A DNA stretch of 64,000 bases from a virus: the IMG/VR virus record IMGVR_UViG_3300035698_011578, positions 1-64,000 of that record; one strand, 5' to 3'. The position numbers were made by a program, and so were the translations under genes. The notes beneath the pieces were generated by a model, which saw nothing but the letters and a program-made list of their open reading frames with translations, was not told the origin of the DNA and did not search any database. Positions 44,057 to 53,092 of this stretch are shown piece after piece (the first letter of the stretch is position 1; each line of letters starts with the position of its first letter).

Positions 44057-45109
44057 TCATAAAGATAAGGAATACACCTCTTCTTTATCTAATATTAGTT
44101 TGAAGTTATACCCGTTCTCTTTGTATGACTTAATTTTATCCAACATATTCTGTTCATCATAAGTCCAAGAACTTTTTATTTCGACTAACTCATTTGTGTC
44201 TACTAAATAAAAGTCTGGTATAGAAGTTCTTTCGGTTTTTATATTTGTGTCGAAATATTGTATTCTTAAACTTTCAACTTCATATTTTATTTTACCATCA
44301 TCTAACAACTTAGCATATTCTAATTCATAAGAACTTCTTAACCAATATTTTTTACCTTCCCAACTAACATGATAGCAAGATTTATATGGATATATCGGTG
44401 TGTCAGAGAATGATTGTCTTCCTTTTTTAATAGCCAATCTACCACTCTCACTATTGTTTCTAGTTTTTATGTTTAGTCGTTTAAATAACATATATACTGT
44501 CTGGTAGTTAATATTATATTTTTCTCCTATTTCAACCATTGAATCAGTTTTATATTCATTTTTCAATTTCATAACTATTCTATAATACTCATCATAAAAA
44601 TATATAGTACCAACTTTTGTTAAATTAAAGCCAAATTTAATGAAGCTTTTTGATCCACCTTTATACCAAAATTTACACATATCTGGGTAAATACATTCTT
44701 CTTGACCACATATTTTGCAAATTTTCTTTTGACATTTACAACATTTACTATTATTTATACTAGCATTTAATTTTATTTTCATATCAACTCCACACTTTTT
44801 ACATTTAGATTGTTTAAAACAATCTCTATTCACAAAACTTTGAGAGTATTTTGATGAACAACTTTTACAACAACATTTCCTATACTTATCTTTATTATAC
44901 ATATTCTCGCTAAGTCCTAATTCATATATTTTATTACAATATAAACATGTAATTTCATAAATTTTACAATTTAACTTTTTTGTTTCACTTCTTTTCTCTT
45001 TTATTTTTAGTTTTTTAGGATTCATATCACAATTTGTGAGATGTGCACCAAATTGTTGATGTTTTACATATTCAATTTCACTATTACAATGTTTACATGT
45101 TTTTTTCAT
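44057..45109 (-). CDS. Zinc-finger homing endonuclease with PD-(D/E)xK nuclease domain
   Basis: The 350-residue protein has several Cys pairs (CKHCNSEIEY, CLYCNKIYE, CSKCGV-like and CKICGQEEC), then a helix-turn-helix-like segment (GEKYNINYQTVYMLFKRL). The C-terminal nuclease shows SIPDFYLVDTNELVEIKSSW, the D...ExK pattern. It is free-standing next to the tRNA array. Such genes often sit beside tRNA clusters in T4-like phages. Confidence 0.72.
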   Translation of the reverse strand: MKKTCKHCNSEIEYVKHQQFGAHLTNCDMNPKKLKIKEKRSETKKLNCKIYEITCLYCNKIYELGLSENMYNKDKYRKCCCKSCSSKYSQSFVNRDCFKQSKCKKCGVDMKIKLNASINNSKCCKCQKKICKICGQEECIYPDMCKFWYKGGSKSFIKFGFNLTKVGTIYFYDEYYRIVMKLKNEYKTDSMVEIGEKYNINYQTVYMLFKRLNIKTRNNSESGRLAIKKGRQSFSDTPIYPYKSCYHVSWEGKKYWLRSSYELEYAKLLDDGKIKYEVESLRIQYFDTNIKTERTSIPDFYLVDTNELVEIKSSWTYDEQNMLDKIKSYKENGYNFKLILDKEEVYSLSL

Positions 45110-45178
45110 ACTTTATATATTAAAATATCAAAGCGTTAAAATTGAAACGAACCAGTATTTTTCGTTTTAGTTTAGAGA

Positions 45179-45248
45179 GCAGGATACCTTAATCGAAAAG
45201 GCGACTCAATATTGGAAGTATCGTATGTTACCACTACACCAATCCTGC
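45179..45248 (-). tRNA. tRNA-Gly (anticodon TCC)
   Basis: Acceptor GCAGGAT pairs with ATCCTGC. D stem GTGT/ACAT, anticodon stem CGATA/TATTG with loop CTTCCAA, and T arm GCCTT/AAGGT are all present. It is the last gene of the first array and reads GGA and GGG. Confidence 0.88.
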
Positions 45249-45256
45249 ATTTTTTG

Positions 45257-45328
45257 AGCAGTAAGGGAATTATGATATCCCGACCTCGACCTTGGCAAGG
45301 TCGCACTCTTCCTCTGAGCTATTACTGC
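45257..45328 (-). tRNA. tRNA-Gly (anticodon GCC)
   Basis: Acceptor GCAGTAA pairs with TTACTGC, D stem GCTC/GAGT, anticodon stem CGACC/GGTCG with loop TTGCCAA. The T stem has one mismatch. It reads GGC and GGT. Confidence 0.88.
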
Positions 45329-45342
45329 AATTTATTGTGTTA

Positions 45343-45414
45343 TGGCGCAGAGAGGAATCGAACCTCAACACACTCACATTTCTTAGTAGAGAAGTCAAAA
45401 AACGAACCCTCTAG
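45343..45414 (-). tRNA. Degenerate tRNA or tRNA remnant
   Basis: The 3' part has a normal T arm (GAGG-TTCGATT-CCTC) and ends in an encoded CCA at 45345-45343, but the 5' part gives no matching acceptor strand and no convincing D or anticodon arm. It lies between tRNA-Gly and tRNA-Ala in the array. It is probably a decayed tRNA or one altered by indels. Confidence 0.35.
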
Positions 45415-45490
45415 TGGAAGCGATGGGAATCGAACCCACCAAACAATCTGGTTGCAAACCAAATTCGCCAGCCTTGGAACATGCGCCCCC
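45415..45490 (-). tRNA. tRNA-Ala (anticodon TGC)
   Basis: Acceptor GGGGGCG pairs with CGCTTCC, including the G3-U70 pair that defines alanine tRNAs. Anticodon stem TTTGG/CCAGA with loop TTTGCAA and T arm GTGGG/CCCAT are clear. The D stem is weak, with several G-U pairs. It reads GCA and GCG. Confidence 0.8.
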
Positions 45491-45500
45491 GTTTTATTAG

Positions 45501-45577
45501 TTGGTGAAGAGGGACTCGAACCCTCATGTGACCAATTACCATTTCAACACGATATAAGCGTGAGTGGATATTCACCA
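45501..45577 (-). tRNA. tRNA-like gene, anticodon not assigned (TAT possible)
   Basis: Acceptor TGGTGAA pairs with TTCACCA, and the T arm GAGGG-TTCGAGT-CCCTC is perfect. The centre does not fold in the standard way. A stem-loop CACG-CTTATAT-CGTG would present TAT (Ile, codon ATA), but then the D arm is nearly absent. It is the first gene after the array terminator. Confidence 0.5.
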
Positions 45578-45582
45578 ATAAA

Positions 45583-45618
45583 AAAAAGCAGTCACTTTTT
45601 GAAAGTGACTGCTTTTTA
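45583..45618 (-). terminator. Attenuator terminator in front of the Ala/Gly tRNA array
   Basis: On the minus strand AAAAGCAGTCACTTT pairs with AAAGTGACTGCTTTT, followed by a run of T, 6 bases before the first tRNA. It lies between the leader ORF and the tRNAs they would share a promoter with. Its 5' arm (CAGTCACTT, 45611-45603) can instead pair with GGGTGGCTG in the leader ORF (45664-45656), nine pairs including three G-U. Confidence 0.8.
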
Positions 45619-45640
45619 ATTTTTTAATATTTCTGAGATA

Positions 45641-45721
45641 TTAAATAACATAATTCAGCCACCCGAAGTTCCCTCCTGCTATACCGTTGCCGTTTGCCGC
45701 TATGTTATTAATTGTTCTCAT
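45641..45721 (-). CDS. Leader peptide of the Ala/Gly tRNA array (26 residues)
   Basis: The ORF encodes MRTINNIAANGNGIAGG followed by NFGWLNYVI. It contains codons GCG GCA, GGC, GGT, GCA, GGA, GGG and GGG within 14 codons, all read by the tRNA-Ala(TGC), Gly(GCC) and Gly(TCC) encoded just downstream. GC content is far above that of neighbouring DNA. The first residues (TINNIA) resemble those of the leader at 52954 (TITNIA). The last third overlaps an antiterminator segment. A regulatory role by ribosome stalling is inferred. Confidence 0.65.
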   Translation of the reverse strand: MRTINNIAANGNGIAGGNFGWLNYVI

Positions 45722-45799
45722 TGTTATAATTTTTCTTTTTACTGTTGTTATATATTAAAGTTTTATTCTCTCTTTTGTTGTTTTTCGTATTATCTTATG

Positions 45800-45831
45800 C
45801 AAATATAAGGCAAAAGTTTTAATTATCCAAA
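45800..45831 (-). promoter_or_regulatory. Promoter of the Ala/Gly tRNA array
   Basis: On the minus strand TTTG (45831-45828), 20 bases, then TATATTTG (45807-45800): a perfect Bacteroidota consensus. Around it TTTGG and CCTTATATTTG are shared with the promoter of the second array. Expected transcript start is about 70 bases before the leader ORF. Confidence 0.8.
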
Positions 45832-46803
45832 TTTATTTACACTTTTCTTCATAATTTTAAAATAATCTGATATAGTTTTTTCATAACTTTCCCTCTCTTT
45901 GTAATTCTCAACAATATAATTGTAGTTGTCTTTCAATTCTAATACACCGTTAATAACATTATCTATCCTAATACTAGGAACATTTTTCAAGAAACACATC
46001 CTATTAAAATCATTAATCATCACACCATTACCATTAACCAATTCAGGTAATCCACCAGATGATGTGTATAGAATAGGTAACTTACATTTAACTGCTTGAC
46101 AAGTTACTTTAGAACCAGCATCTCTAAAAAATGGTGAGATGAATGCATCACACATACTAATAAGATTACACATCTCTGTCCTATCATCTATATAACCATA
46201 TTTGATTATATTTTCAGGTAGTTCTTCAATATCACACTCACCTATCAGATAAAATAAATCATTGTCAAATATTTTTGACATGGCTATAATAGTTGATAAA
46301 CGTTTACCCTCTCTCTCCCAATTACTACAAGAACTAATCCATTTAAACACCTGATTAGATTCCTTTTTATCCGGATTATAATCTTCAGAATTATTTAATA
46401 TGACAATATCATTATCATATTCTACATCATAAAGTTCTTTAAGTGTGTTCTTTGAATAATTTGATATAAATATAACAAAATCTGATTGATAACCGGCATC
46501 TATATGTAACTTATTTTTATAATCGAATTCTTTTCTCCAATAAATACCATCCATTCTTTTAACTTTGGGTATATTATTCAATTCAGACCACTCTAATACT
46601 TCTTTAGAATAAAATGTGTTTGTTATAATAATATCTGCTAATTTGTAATCAGATACACGATTAAACCCATAATTACCTGCATACCTACACAAGTCGTGCA
46701 TTATATCATTTTCTTTAGGCCCGAAAGATTTGACACTATGAAGTGTATTACTTACTCTATTATTTGAGCAATCATAATAATTTTTAAGCATTTCTCTTTT
46801 CAT
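45823..46803 (-). CDS. Glycosyltransferase, GT-B fold (GT4-like)
   Basis: The 326-residue protein has the C-terminal GT4 pattern CDAFISPFFRDAGSKVTCQA and KLPILYTSSGGLPELVNGNG, plus an N-terminal domain with FVIFISNYSKNTLKEL. GT4 enzymes transfer sugars from nucleotide-sugar donors. The acceptor may be phage DNA, a virion protein or host envelope. The C-terminus is short compared with cellular enzymes. It overlaps the RNA ligase gene by 20 bases. Confidence 0.75.
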   Translation of the reverse strand: MKREMLKNYYDCSNNRVSNTLHSVKSFGPKENDIMHDLCRYAGNYGFNRVSDYKLADIIITNTFYSKEVLEWSELNNIPKVKRMDGIYWRKEFDYKNKLHIDAGYQSDFVIFISNYSKNTLKELYDVEYDNDIVILNNSEDYNPDKKESNQVFKWISSCSNWEREGKRLSTIIAMSKIFDNDLFYLIGECDIEELPENIIKYGYIDDRTEMCNLISMCDAFISPFFRDAGSKVTCQAVKCKLPILYTSSGGLPELVNGNGVMINDFNRMCFLKNVPSIRIDNVINGVLELKDNYNYIVENYKERESYEKTISDYFKIMKKSVNKFG

Positions 46804-52572: not shown

Positions 52573-52630
52573 CTAAAAATTTCAATTACATATCAATTTT
52601 TAGTATATTATTTTTAGTTTATTATGTTTG

Positions 52631-52711
52631 TGGGTAAAGAGAGATTCGAACTCACAAACCCGAAGGCCACGGGGTTACAACCCGCTAGGCAACCAACTGC
52701 CCAATTTACCC
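52631..52711 (-). tRNA. tRNA with long variable arm, anticodon read as GTA (Tyr), TGT possible
   Basis: Acceptor GGGTAAA pairs with TTTACCC, D stem GGGC/GCCT, anticodon stem GCGGG/CCCGT with loop TTGTAAC, a 13-base variable region and T arm GTGAG/CTCTC with one mismatch. Standard loop geometry gives GTA. A one-base shift would give TGT (Thr), but the stem then fails to pair. Confidence 0.7.
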
Positions 52712-52720
52712 AATTTTGAG

Positions 52721-52788
52721 AAGCACATAGGGGAATCGAACCCCCGTTTACTGAAAATCTGTCGTCCTAACCACTAGACGAATGCGCC
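52721..52788 (-). tRNA. tRNA-Glu-like (anticodon TTC), anticodon stem incomplete
   Basis: Acceptor GGCGCAT pairs with ATGTGCT, D arm GTCT-AGTGGTTA-GGAC and T arm GGGGG/CCCCT are good and typical of tRNA-Glu. The loop TTTTCAG follows ACAGA, but the expected 3' stem strand is missing and the gene is about 5 bases short. It is either defective or damaged by an indel. Confidence 0.6.
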
Positions 52789-52795
52789 ATTTTTG

Positions 52796-52878
52796 TGGGC
52801 CGGGAGGGATTCGAACCCCCGAACTCGAAAGAGAGATGTTTTACAGACACCGTGCTTTAACCTCTTGCATACCGACCC
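52796..52878 (-). tRNA. tRNA-Tyr (anticodon GTA)
   Basis: Acceptor GGGTCGG pairs with CCGGCCC, anticodon stem GGTGT/ACATC with loop CTGTAAA, a long variable arm of about 14 bases as expected for bacterial tRNA-Tyr, and T arm GGGGG-TTCGAAT-CCCTC. It is the first gene after the array terminator. Confidence 0.88.
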
Positions 52879-52891
52879 AGTTTTTTATAAC

Positions 52892-52929
52892 AAAAAAAAC
52901 CAATCTAACATTTATGTCAGATTGGTTTT
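52892..52929 (-). terminator. Attenuator terminator in front of the Tyr/Glu tRNA array
   Basis: On the minus strand AAAACCAATCTGACAT pairs with ATGTTAGATTGGTTTT (one mismatch), followed by T residues, 13 bases before tRNA-Tyr. The 5' arm segment ATCTGACA (52922-52915) is a perfect 8-base complement of TGTCAGAT in the leader ORF (52967-52960), so terminator and antiterminator exclude each other. Confidence 0.82.
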
Positions 52930-52953: not shown

Positions 52954-53019
52954 CTATCTATCTGACAAAATTTTCATTTTCTCTTCATAATAATAAGCTA
53001 TGTTTGTTATTGTTGTCAT
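52954..53019 (-). CDS. Leader peptide of the Tyr/Glu tRNA array (21 residues)
   Basis: The ORF encodes MTTITNIAYYYEEKMKILSD plus Arg. Three TAT (Tyr) codons are followed directly by GAA and GAG (Glu), the codons read by the downstream tRNA-Tyr and tRNA-Glu. If the third tRNA were Thr(TGT), the three ACA codons at the start would also match. The codons for LSD overlap the antiterminator segment, and the stop codon follows at once. Regulation by ribosome position is inferred. Confidence 0.65.
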   Translation of the reverse strand: MTTITNIAYYYEEKMKILSDR

Positions 53020-53060: not shown

Positions 53061-53092
53061 CAAATATAAGGAAGATATTTTAAACCACCAAA
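53061..53092 (-). promoter_or_regulatory. Promoter of the Tyr/Glu tRNA array
   Basis: On the minus strand TTTG (53092-53089), 20 bases, then TATATTTG (53068-53061): a perfect Bacteroidota consensus with the same CCTTATATTTG context as the first array. Confidence 0.8.

Follow-up and report, generated by a model that had tools for sequence, protein, structure and literature searches.

A 95,476-base virus record (G000) carries four compact units in which a promoter and a short open reading frame (ORF) are followed by an intrinsic terminator and an array of tRNA genes, and in which the codons of the ORF differ with the array that follows. Each unit is very probably a ribosome-mediated transcription attenuator of the trp/his type that controls a phage tRNA operon. 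We describe the parts of these units, the match between leader codons and arrays, its specificity for isoacceptors, the coupling of one leader segment (segment 2) to its own terminator, and the alternative folds of the leader RNA. Read from sequence, the predicted system is genome-wide, isoacceptor-specific, and present in phages whose hosts span two or more phyla. We lean slightly towards the broader view that large phages infecting unrelated hosts have circuits for tRNA homeostasis, in which a codon-matched attenuator senses the shortage of an isoacceptor and provides an on-demand supply.

From promoter transcription and ORF translation to stalling, read-through, and feedback, we infer the following course of events. 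Transcription would begin ahead of a short ORF in which codons for the downstream tRNAs abound. Given ample charged cognate tRNAs, the leading ribosome would reach the end of the ORF and cover segment 2, leaving the 5' arm of the terminator free for its 3' arm, and transcription would stop. Shortage or lack of charging of a cognate tRNA would stall the ribosome on the control codons, segment 2 would pair with the terminator 5' arm to form an antiterminator, and the polymerase would read into the tRNA genes. New tRNA would then speed the ribosome and close the switch, a negative feedback (a homeostat) on the supply of the encoded isoacceptors.

The reason for tRNA genes in phages has long been debated, usually on grounds of codon usage. 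If the proposal is true, phage regulation itself tells which tRNA shortage each array relieves, and this is directly testable. Such circuits would also be a ready answer to host decay or to host tRNA-cutting enzymes, because a cut tRNA would itself call for its own replacement, and they suggest possible demand-driven counter-measures to tRNA-cleaving defences. Ribosome-mediated attenuation would be extended to tRNA genes, with several amino acids matched by a single leader, and a sequence rule for finding such units is provided.

Unit A and its paralogues

The stretch analysed here, called the window, comprises the first 64,000 nucleotides of the 95,476-base record. A first-pass annotation had placed a promoter, an ORF, a terminator, and tRNA genes in that order on the minus strand at 45831-45179, and checks of the sequence, ORF, terminator, and tRNAs locate every one of these parts there. 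The promoter consists of TTTG (45831-45828), a 20-nt spacer, and TATATTTG (45807-45800), which we take to be a match to the Bacteroidota -33/-7 consensus; a sigma-70 promoter scan was uninformative at this unit. The features of unit A are as follows.

45800..45831, minus strand: promoter, presumably Bacteroidota-type (from sequence)
45749..45756, minus strand: AATATATA element, candidate phage promoter or initiation signal, recurring upstream of leaders
45641..45721, minus strand: leader ORF of 26 codons, MRTINNIAANGNGIAGGNFGWLNYVI (sequence)
45701..45709, minus strand: segment 1, AATAACATA, with its partner at 45652-45644 in the free full-length leader
45662..45700, minus strand: control codons 8-20, GCG GCA AAC GGC AAC GGT ATA GCA GGA GGG AAC TTC GGG
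45656..45664, minus strand: segment 2, antiterminator arm GGGTGGCTG, inside the ORF (predicted pairing)
45644..45652, minus strand: segment 1 partner, TATGTTATT (computed fold)
45603..45611, minus strand: segment 3, CAGTCACTT, within the terminator 5' arm (predicted pairing)
45583..45617, minus strand: intrinsic terminator, 16 pairs (terminator prediction)
45501..45577, minus strand: tRNA-Ile, anticodon TAT by model alignment, odd D arm (Rfam tRNA model, 29.8 bits, cut-off 29)
45414..45488, minus strand: tRNA-Ala(TGC) (ARAGORN)
45257..45328, minus strand: tRNA-Gly, anticodon GCC by model alignment (Rfam tRNA model, 47.3 bits)
45177..45248, minus strand: tRNA-Gly(TCC) (ARAGORN)

The ORF reads ATG AGA ACA ATT AAT AAC ATA GCG GCA AAC GGC AAC GGT ATA GCA GGA GGG AAC TTC GGG TGG CTG AAT TAT GTT ATT TAA. 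Its cluster of eight Ala and Gly codons stands as originally described, except that it spans 13 consecutive codons (8-20) rather than 14. Ala and Gly make up 8/25 residues vs 2.1 expected (P = 7e-4), and the control codons are read by the downstream Ala(TGC), Gly(GCC), Gly(TCC), and Ile(TAT); for AAC and TTC, no matching tRNA was seen in the unit A array. The predicted nine-pair helix between GGGTGGCTG (45664-45656) and CAGTCACTT (45611-45603) is present, with a best duplex of -12.1 kcal/mol that is equalled by 1% of 200 shuffled leaders. Folding of the free full-length RNA gives a second pairing, AATAACATA (45709-45701) with TATGTTATT (45652-45644), which joins both ends of the ORF; leader and terminator together fold with z = -5.1.

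Among the tRNAs previously assigned to the array, Ala(TGC) and Gly(TCC) are called by ARAGORN and Gly(GCC) by the Rfam tRNA model only. The suspicion that the first tRNA has a TAT anticodon was borne out by the Rfam model alignment, which places UAU there (29.8 bits; ARAGORN missed this tRNA). Two tRNAs are divergent: Gly(GCC) at 45328-45257, with a T loop without TTC, and Ile(TAT) at 45577-45501, with its odd D arm. Visual inspection shows the remnant of a T arm and acceptor 3' strand at about 45400-45345, for which a matching 5' acceptor is missing, and an endonuclease-like ORF adjoining the array (window 45109-44057, minus strand). Across the whole window, tRNA is the sole Rfam family at the gathering threshold; sub-threshold matches other than tRNA-like ones were rejected as being at chance level only.

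Leader A alone would not be decisive; as far as sequence can decide, the paralogues and homologues are what is decisive. A search of the 95-kb record with unit A returned copies of the promoter region at 53.0 kb (minus strand) and at 66.0 kb and 74.7 kb (plus strand), each followed by a different ORF, then a terminator, and then a different tRNA array (units B-D). The features of unit B are as follows.

53061..53092, minus strand: promoter, TTTG at 53092-53089 and TATATTTG at 53068-53061
52954..53019, minus strand: leader ORF, MTTITNIAYYYEEKMKILSDR (contains YYYEE)
52981..52995, minus strand: control codons TAT TAT TAT GAA GAG
52960..52967, minus strand: segment 2, TGTCAGAT (duplex -10.5, equalled by 1% of shuffles)
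52915..52922, minus strand: segment 3, ATCTGACA, within the terminator 5' arm
52896..52929, minus strand: intrinsic terminator
52795..52878, minus strand: tRNA-Tyr(GTA) (ARAGORN)
52721..52788, minus strand: tRNA-Glu, anticodon TTC read by eye (Rfam only, 45.3 bits)
52630..52711, minus strand: second tRNA-Tyr(GTA) (ARAGORN)

Unit C, with leader MKNRNLNMNTNLTLNVVNITLCNIRRTEGCDQFRLY, precedes Asn, Asn, Leu, Arg, Leu, Val, Cys, Val, one tRNA without assignment, Thr, Thr, Arg, and Leu. Unit D, with leader MKKVNVNITVVNQPQVDQDPILIRTSRALQIT (QPQVDQDP), precedes Asp, Gln, Asp, Pro, Asp, Pro, and Gln. The peptides of different units within one genome are alike near the start only.

Two minor observations concern the surroundings of these units. 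Endonuclease-like ORFs, identified by eye, lie near or within arrays at locus L002 (from about 2045) and at locus L003 (from about 1807, between the terminator and the first tRNA). A fifth copy of the unit promoter sequence (locus L005, 1501-1535; 88805, 88.8 kb) runs straight into a protein gene, and neither a leader nor a terminator was seen in the interval.

Leader codons and tRNA arrays in related phages

The 95-kb fragment is related to huge phages of 634-735 kb. By ribonucleotide reductase, its nearest named records come from uncultured huge phages: LR756502, of 642 kb, at 69% identity, and LR756501, of 735 kb, at 55%. The tail sheath adds LR745206 (635 kb, 71%), LR756504, LR756500, and Prevotella Lak phages as relatives. 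For a fixed-rule scan, 54 loci were taken from named and IMG/VR relatives as stretches around tRNAs among the matches listed, so further arrays are possible. The rule comprised a terminator; the longest ATG ORF of 12-50 codons that ends no more than 110 nt upstream and does not overlap a tRNA; and a first tRNA within 1.5 kb. An intrinsic terminator separates leader ORF and regulated genes, a feature that in the relatives is part of the search rule. The scan gave at least 70 candidate units in 16/18 phage records, a figure that includes at least four noise rows. Removal by hand of 4 rows as noise (W01 L097, the second of G002 L109, the first of G016, and W08) leaves 66 hand-filtered rows; in rows kept, the leader ORF has 16-48 codons and its stop codon lies 16-46 nt from the terminator.

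The records were reached by several routes. W01 and W02 were first found by DNA similarity at the window's tRNA stretch, W03 by ribonucleotide reductase, and G002, G003, and W05-W09 by tail sheath; G013, G014, G015, G016, and G017 were retrieved via leader patterns and W04 first via leader DNA, and are therefore biased towards having leaders. Comparison of leaders with tRNA content in relatives had been set as the test on which the attenuator idea should fail or hold: in the main arrays, leaders persist and change with the arrays. In LR756504, leader MKTVNTNIAIVEIAVIGGAEEG... precedes Glu, Ala, Ile, Val, Gly, and Glu; leader MKAMILSLCLSLSLSLQKLG... precedes Leu, Leu, Ser, Cys, Ser, Ser, Leu, and Leu; and leader MRTILIIKKKKRD... 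precedes four Lys tRNAs. The groupings are quite different in LR756501, where ...PAPAVAFRRGTGTGTGTCVPAGCG... stands before an Arg/Thr/Val/Ala/Gly/Pro array and a Leu-rich leader before five Leu. Putative inner attenuators lie inside arrays of LR756502 and LR745206, MTTSFQQQQQQQINRTD before four Gln and MTTTQQIQQQQINQTD before three Gln, and in Lak-A1 leader MKTLNMTYGMHPVCGMVHMFPCGGGRPM... is followed by His, Pro, Arg, Arg, Gly, Cys, and Met. LR756501 also holds, at L108 10585-10738, two adjacent tRNAs with anticodon CTA that ARAGORN labels Pyl and that are suppressor-like.

At the loci covered, the fixed-rule scan found no leader at the largest Lak arrays (18 and 19 tRNAs), at isolated single tRNAs, or at several groups of 2-4 tRNAs; a rescan of the large Lak arrays with TAG read through (code 15) gave no leader. 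The same scan returned a noise row only for pT24 and no row for PAU; MA9V-2 had no tRNA match, and ARAGORN called no tRNA in stretch L118 of G001. Leader patterns were also used as queries. The Tyr/Glu pattern recovered the 476-kb phage only. The Asp/Gln/Pro pattern gave 34 stretches, three of them before tRNAs (two known, L186 new; 3/3 with a matching ORF), and four other stretches with tRNAs had no matching ORF. The Phe/His/Lys pattern gave six: one known, two new records with tRNAs, and three short records without any tRNA match, which were rejected as probably chance. The exact promoter pattern had no match in viral_contigs, and a whole-unit DNA search against named phages returned short tRNA similarity only, in 5 records.

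Leaders match their own arrays. Over 67 rows from the 13 genomes with at least two rows each, the own array serves 0.373 of leader residues vs 0.180 when arrays are permuted within the genome (0/20,000, z 13), and the codon-level match is 0.330 vs 0.148 (0/20,000). The signal lies in the reading frame, with matches of 0.371/0.181/0.144 in frames 0/+1/+2 (70 rows). Single genomes range from 0/20,000 each in W01 and W05 (8 rows apiece), through P 0.039 in the window's own genome (4 rows), to 0.16 in G016 (3 rows) and 0.5 in G013 and G017 (2 rows each). Tested binomially against pooled leaders, 38/70 rows reach P<0.01 and 60/70 P<0.05; 4 of the 10 rows that miss P<0.05 are noise. Homologous rows are not independent, and a test with one leader per homologous class was therefore made (24 representatives, noise rows kept, from a crude clustering that merged Ala/Gly with Asp/Pro/Gln leaders); it gave 0.369 vs 0.163 (0/50,000).

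The codon match reaches the isoacceptor level for Arg and Ile. Arg codons AGR:CGN stand at 22:1 where the array has AGR-reading tRNAs only vs 6:16 where it has CGN-reading ones only (P = 1.7e-6), and Ile codons AUA:AUY at 15:6 with TAT only (the noise row W08 contributes 1 of these 15 AUA codons) vs 2:15 with GAT only (P = 3e-4); both P values are optimistic because homologous leaders are counted separately. The Leu contrast has the same direction on few codons (P 0.048). The codons for Ser fail to track the array: leaders whose arrays have TCN-reading tRNA-Ser only hold 34 TCN and 17 AGY, and there is no contrast. On balance, the isoacceptor-level match indicates tRNA supply rather than amino-acid supply as what is sensed.

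These data bear on whether the ORF might instead sense the general rate of translation, such that slow ribosomes of any cause would open the terminator and the codon match would merely slow the ORF under the phage's own usage. A race between polymerase and ribosome is generic to attenuation, as PMC1183508 describes, and about 63% of leader residues have no match in their own array. A general sensor, however, needs neither a match that tracks each array separately within a genome nor one that distinguishes Arg and Ile isoacceptors, and we consider this reading unlikely.

Terminator pairing, folding, and promoter signals

Leaders are coupled to their own terminators. Summed over 67 rows, run without removal of noise rows, pairing of leader with own terminator 5' arm amounts to -698.0 vs -520.6 kcal/mol with the arms of other units (sd 20.5, 0/20,000), and for the 24 class representatives to -252.7 vs -159.5 (sd 9.7, 0/50,000). 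Against shuffled leaders, segment-2 pairing reaches P<0.05 in 35/66 hand-filtered rows and P<0.01 in 25/66. It is mostly weak in Asp/Pro/Gln leaders, which make poor antiterminators (unit D of the record: -3.9, shuffle P 0.73). Examples are CTGAGGGTT with AACCCTCAG in the Asn/Leu class, GTTCGG with CCGAAC in the Phe/His/Lys class, and GCTTGGGT with ACCCAAGC in LR756504.

Folding of the leader RNA in both states had been suggested as a check. A ribosome set at a control codon, chosen by hand, gave the antiterminator and one set at the stop codon gave the terminator in all seven leaders tried; the two structures exclude one another according to ribosome position as set, weakly so in the Asp/Pro/Gln class. 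The terminator also forms in 7/7 free full-length RNAs. In nascent RNA without a ribosome, the antiterminator is the best fold in 6/7, so that an untranslated leader may read through; unit B alone forms an upstream hairpin, which is hence not a general feature. These nascent folds make a finishing ribosome that covers segment 2 a likelier decisive step than release of an upstream hairpin.

Two motifs recur within 130 nt upstream of the leader ATG: TAnnTTTG in 35/66 leaders vs 10% of random stretches, and AATATATA in 40/66 vs 2.8%. The latter, a candidate phage promoter or initiation signal, occurs 41 times in the window on both strands (e.g., 45756-45749, 53206, 54466); 30 of the 41 copies lie 8-50 nt upstream of an ATG that opens a frame of at least 40 codons, a raw count without chance control. 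Inner leaders, directly after tRNAs, probably rely on read-through. TAnnTTTG also occurs between terminator and first tRNA in 5/66 rows. Three of these are Tyr/Glu units, which could thereby bypass the switch; those that follow tRNA-Met are G002 L111, G014 L138, and G015 L140.

TAnnTTTG in this position, together with the strong terminator and promoter of unit A, would suit a functional small RNA or peptide made for its own sake, with the tRNAs expressed by plain read-through or from another promoter. In phage K, a highly expressed RNA lies upstream of weakly transcribed tRNA genes, with no evident terminator or attenuator in the portion of PMC11598898 available. Such a product would require neither codons matched to the downstream array nor a segment 2 coupled to its own terminator; the peptides of one genome's units differ except near the start, and the window holds no Rfam family except tRNA at the gathering threshold. 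We regard this explanation as very improbable, and favour leader-peptide attenuation of the tRNA array, the function first proposed for unit A, to which codon-array matching, own-terminator complementarity, paralogues, and relatives all point.

Known systems and units outside the lineage

Ribosome-mediated attenuators are known for trp, his, leu, thr, ilvGMEDA, ilvBN, and pheA, and these amino-acid operons, as PMC1183508 presents them, share with the phage units regulatory codons in a leader ORF, an antiterminator and a terminator that exclude each other, and coupling of ribosome and polymerase. The units described here differ in being phage-borne, in preceding tRNA genes rather than biosynthetic enzymes, in the number of amino acids that a leader serves, about seven at most in the clearer cases, and in occurring several per genome with isoacceptor-matched codons. 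They are not attenuators of amino-acid biosynthetic operons, since tRNA genes follow and not genes that make the sensed amino acid; tRNA genes as the target of ribosome-mediated attenuation would be what is new here. The pheST attenuator of Escherichia coli acts on a tRNA-charging gene and has a leader rich in the cognate codon. It resembles the phage units in its tRNA-related target and cognate-rich leader; it differs in that it concerns a synthetase, a single amino acid, and a bacterium. T-box riboswitches respond to the charging of a named tRNA by choosing between terminator and antiterminator, as proposed here, but bind the tRNA directly and without translation. Despite the tRNA-related genes downstream of the terminator, a T-box or another direct tRNA-binding RNA is extremely improbable in our units, given that the signal lies in reading frame 0 and that Rfam scans gave no T-box match in the window as a whole or in the unit region (45100-45900, none among 32 matches up to E 10).

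Huge phages, the kind to which the phages studied here belong, carry up to 67 tRNAs per complete genome (PMC7162821). The terms 'attenuat' and 'leader' are absent from the accessible main text of that paper and, by term search, from the accessible parts of PMC13015707 and PMC11025619. The first-pass annotation knew of no account of attenuated phage tRNA genes, and among the matches listed we found none in the titles and abstract openings of the open literature; subscription papers mostly fall outside this search, which is hence no proof of absence.

Outside the lineage, tRNA stretches of 11 named phages were inspected, the first five as intended negative controls. No such unit was found in the fetched tRNA stretches of T4, FelixO1, XacN1, Mater, and RaK2. 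A candidate in KVP40 precedes an array for almost every amino acid and is therefore uninformative, and Atu_ph07 has a clear antiterminator with an uninformative codon score (P 0.3). Bacillus phage G probably has a similar unit: leader MMKCSWFEFDTDFTDVFYCEYTFYSLYTFLD... is followed by Cys, Asp, Phe, Tyr, Glu, Thr, and Ser (27/43, P = 6e-4), with a doubtful antiterminator (shuffle P 0.04 to 0.49 depending on the arm chosen), and the other tRNA groups of this phage gave no leader unit.

Similar predicted units are present in Lak phages, in Salicola phage SCTP-2, and in phiCbK-type Caulobacter phages. SCTP-2 has four (P 2e-3 to 4e-5), for example MRTNTTVNQYQLQQLPLVLYPYNGGKGC before Leu, Pro, Leu, Tyr, and Gln (13/27). 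Arrays of Val/Ile/Gln/Arg tRNAs follow leaders in CcrKarma (P 3e-3) and CcrColossus (P 0.065), where the antiterminators amount to -28 and -29 kcal/mol. Another CcrKarma candidate stands before Cys and has no codon match (0/23). Over 10 outside rows, the match exceeds 50,000 permutations, although the rows (ATG ORFs only) were picked by hand after coverage was known, which makes the P values optimistic.

At the DNA level, 45 records match the CcrKarma stretch of leader and terminator. The terminator scan missed phiCbK and RB23. phiCbK and Caulobacter crescentus form a laboratory pair in which the proposal can be tested. Across six Caulobacter and Brevundimonas phages with a fitted terminator, the arms in ORF and terminator change yet stay complementary, as between CcrSC, where TCGGACGGGCC pairs with GGCCCGTCCGA, and CcrRogue; phiCbK has the same ORF and the complementary pair GGCGGGCC/GGCCCGCC.
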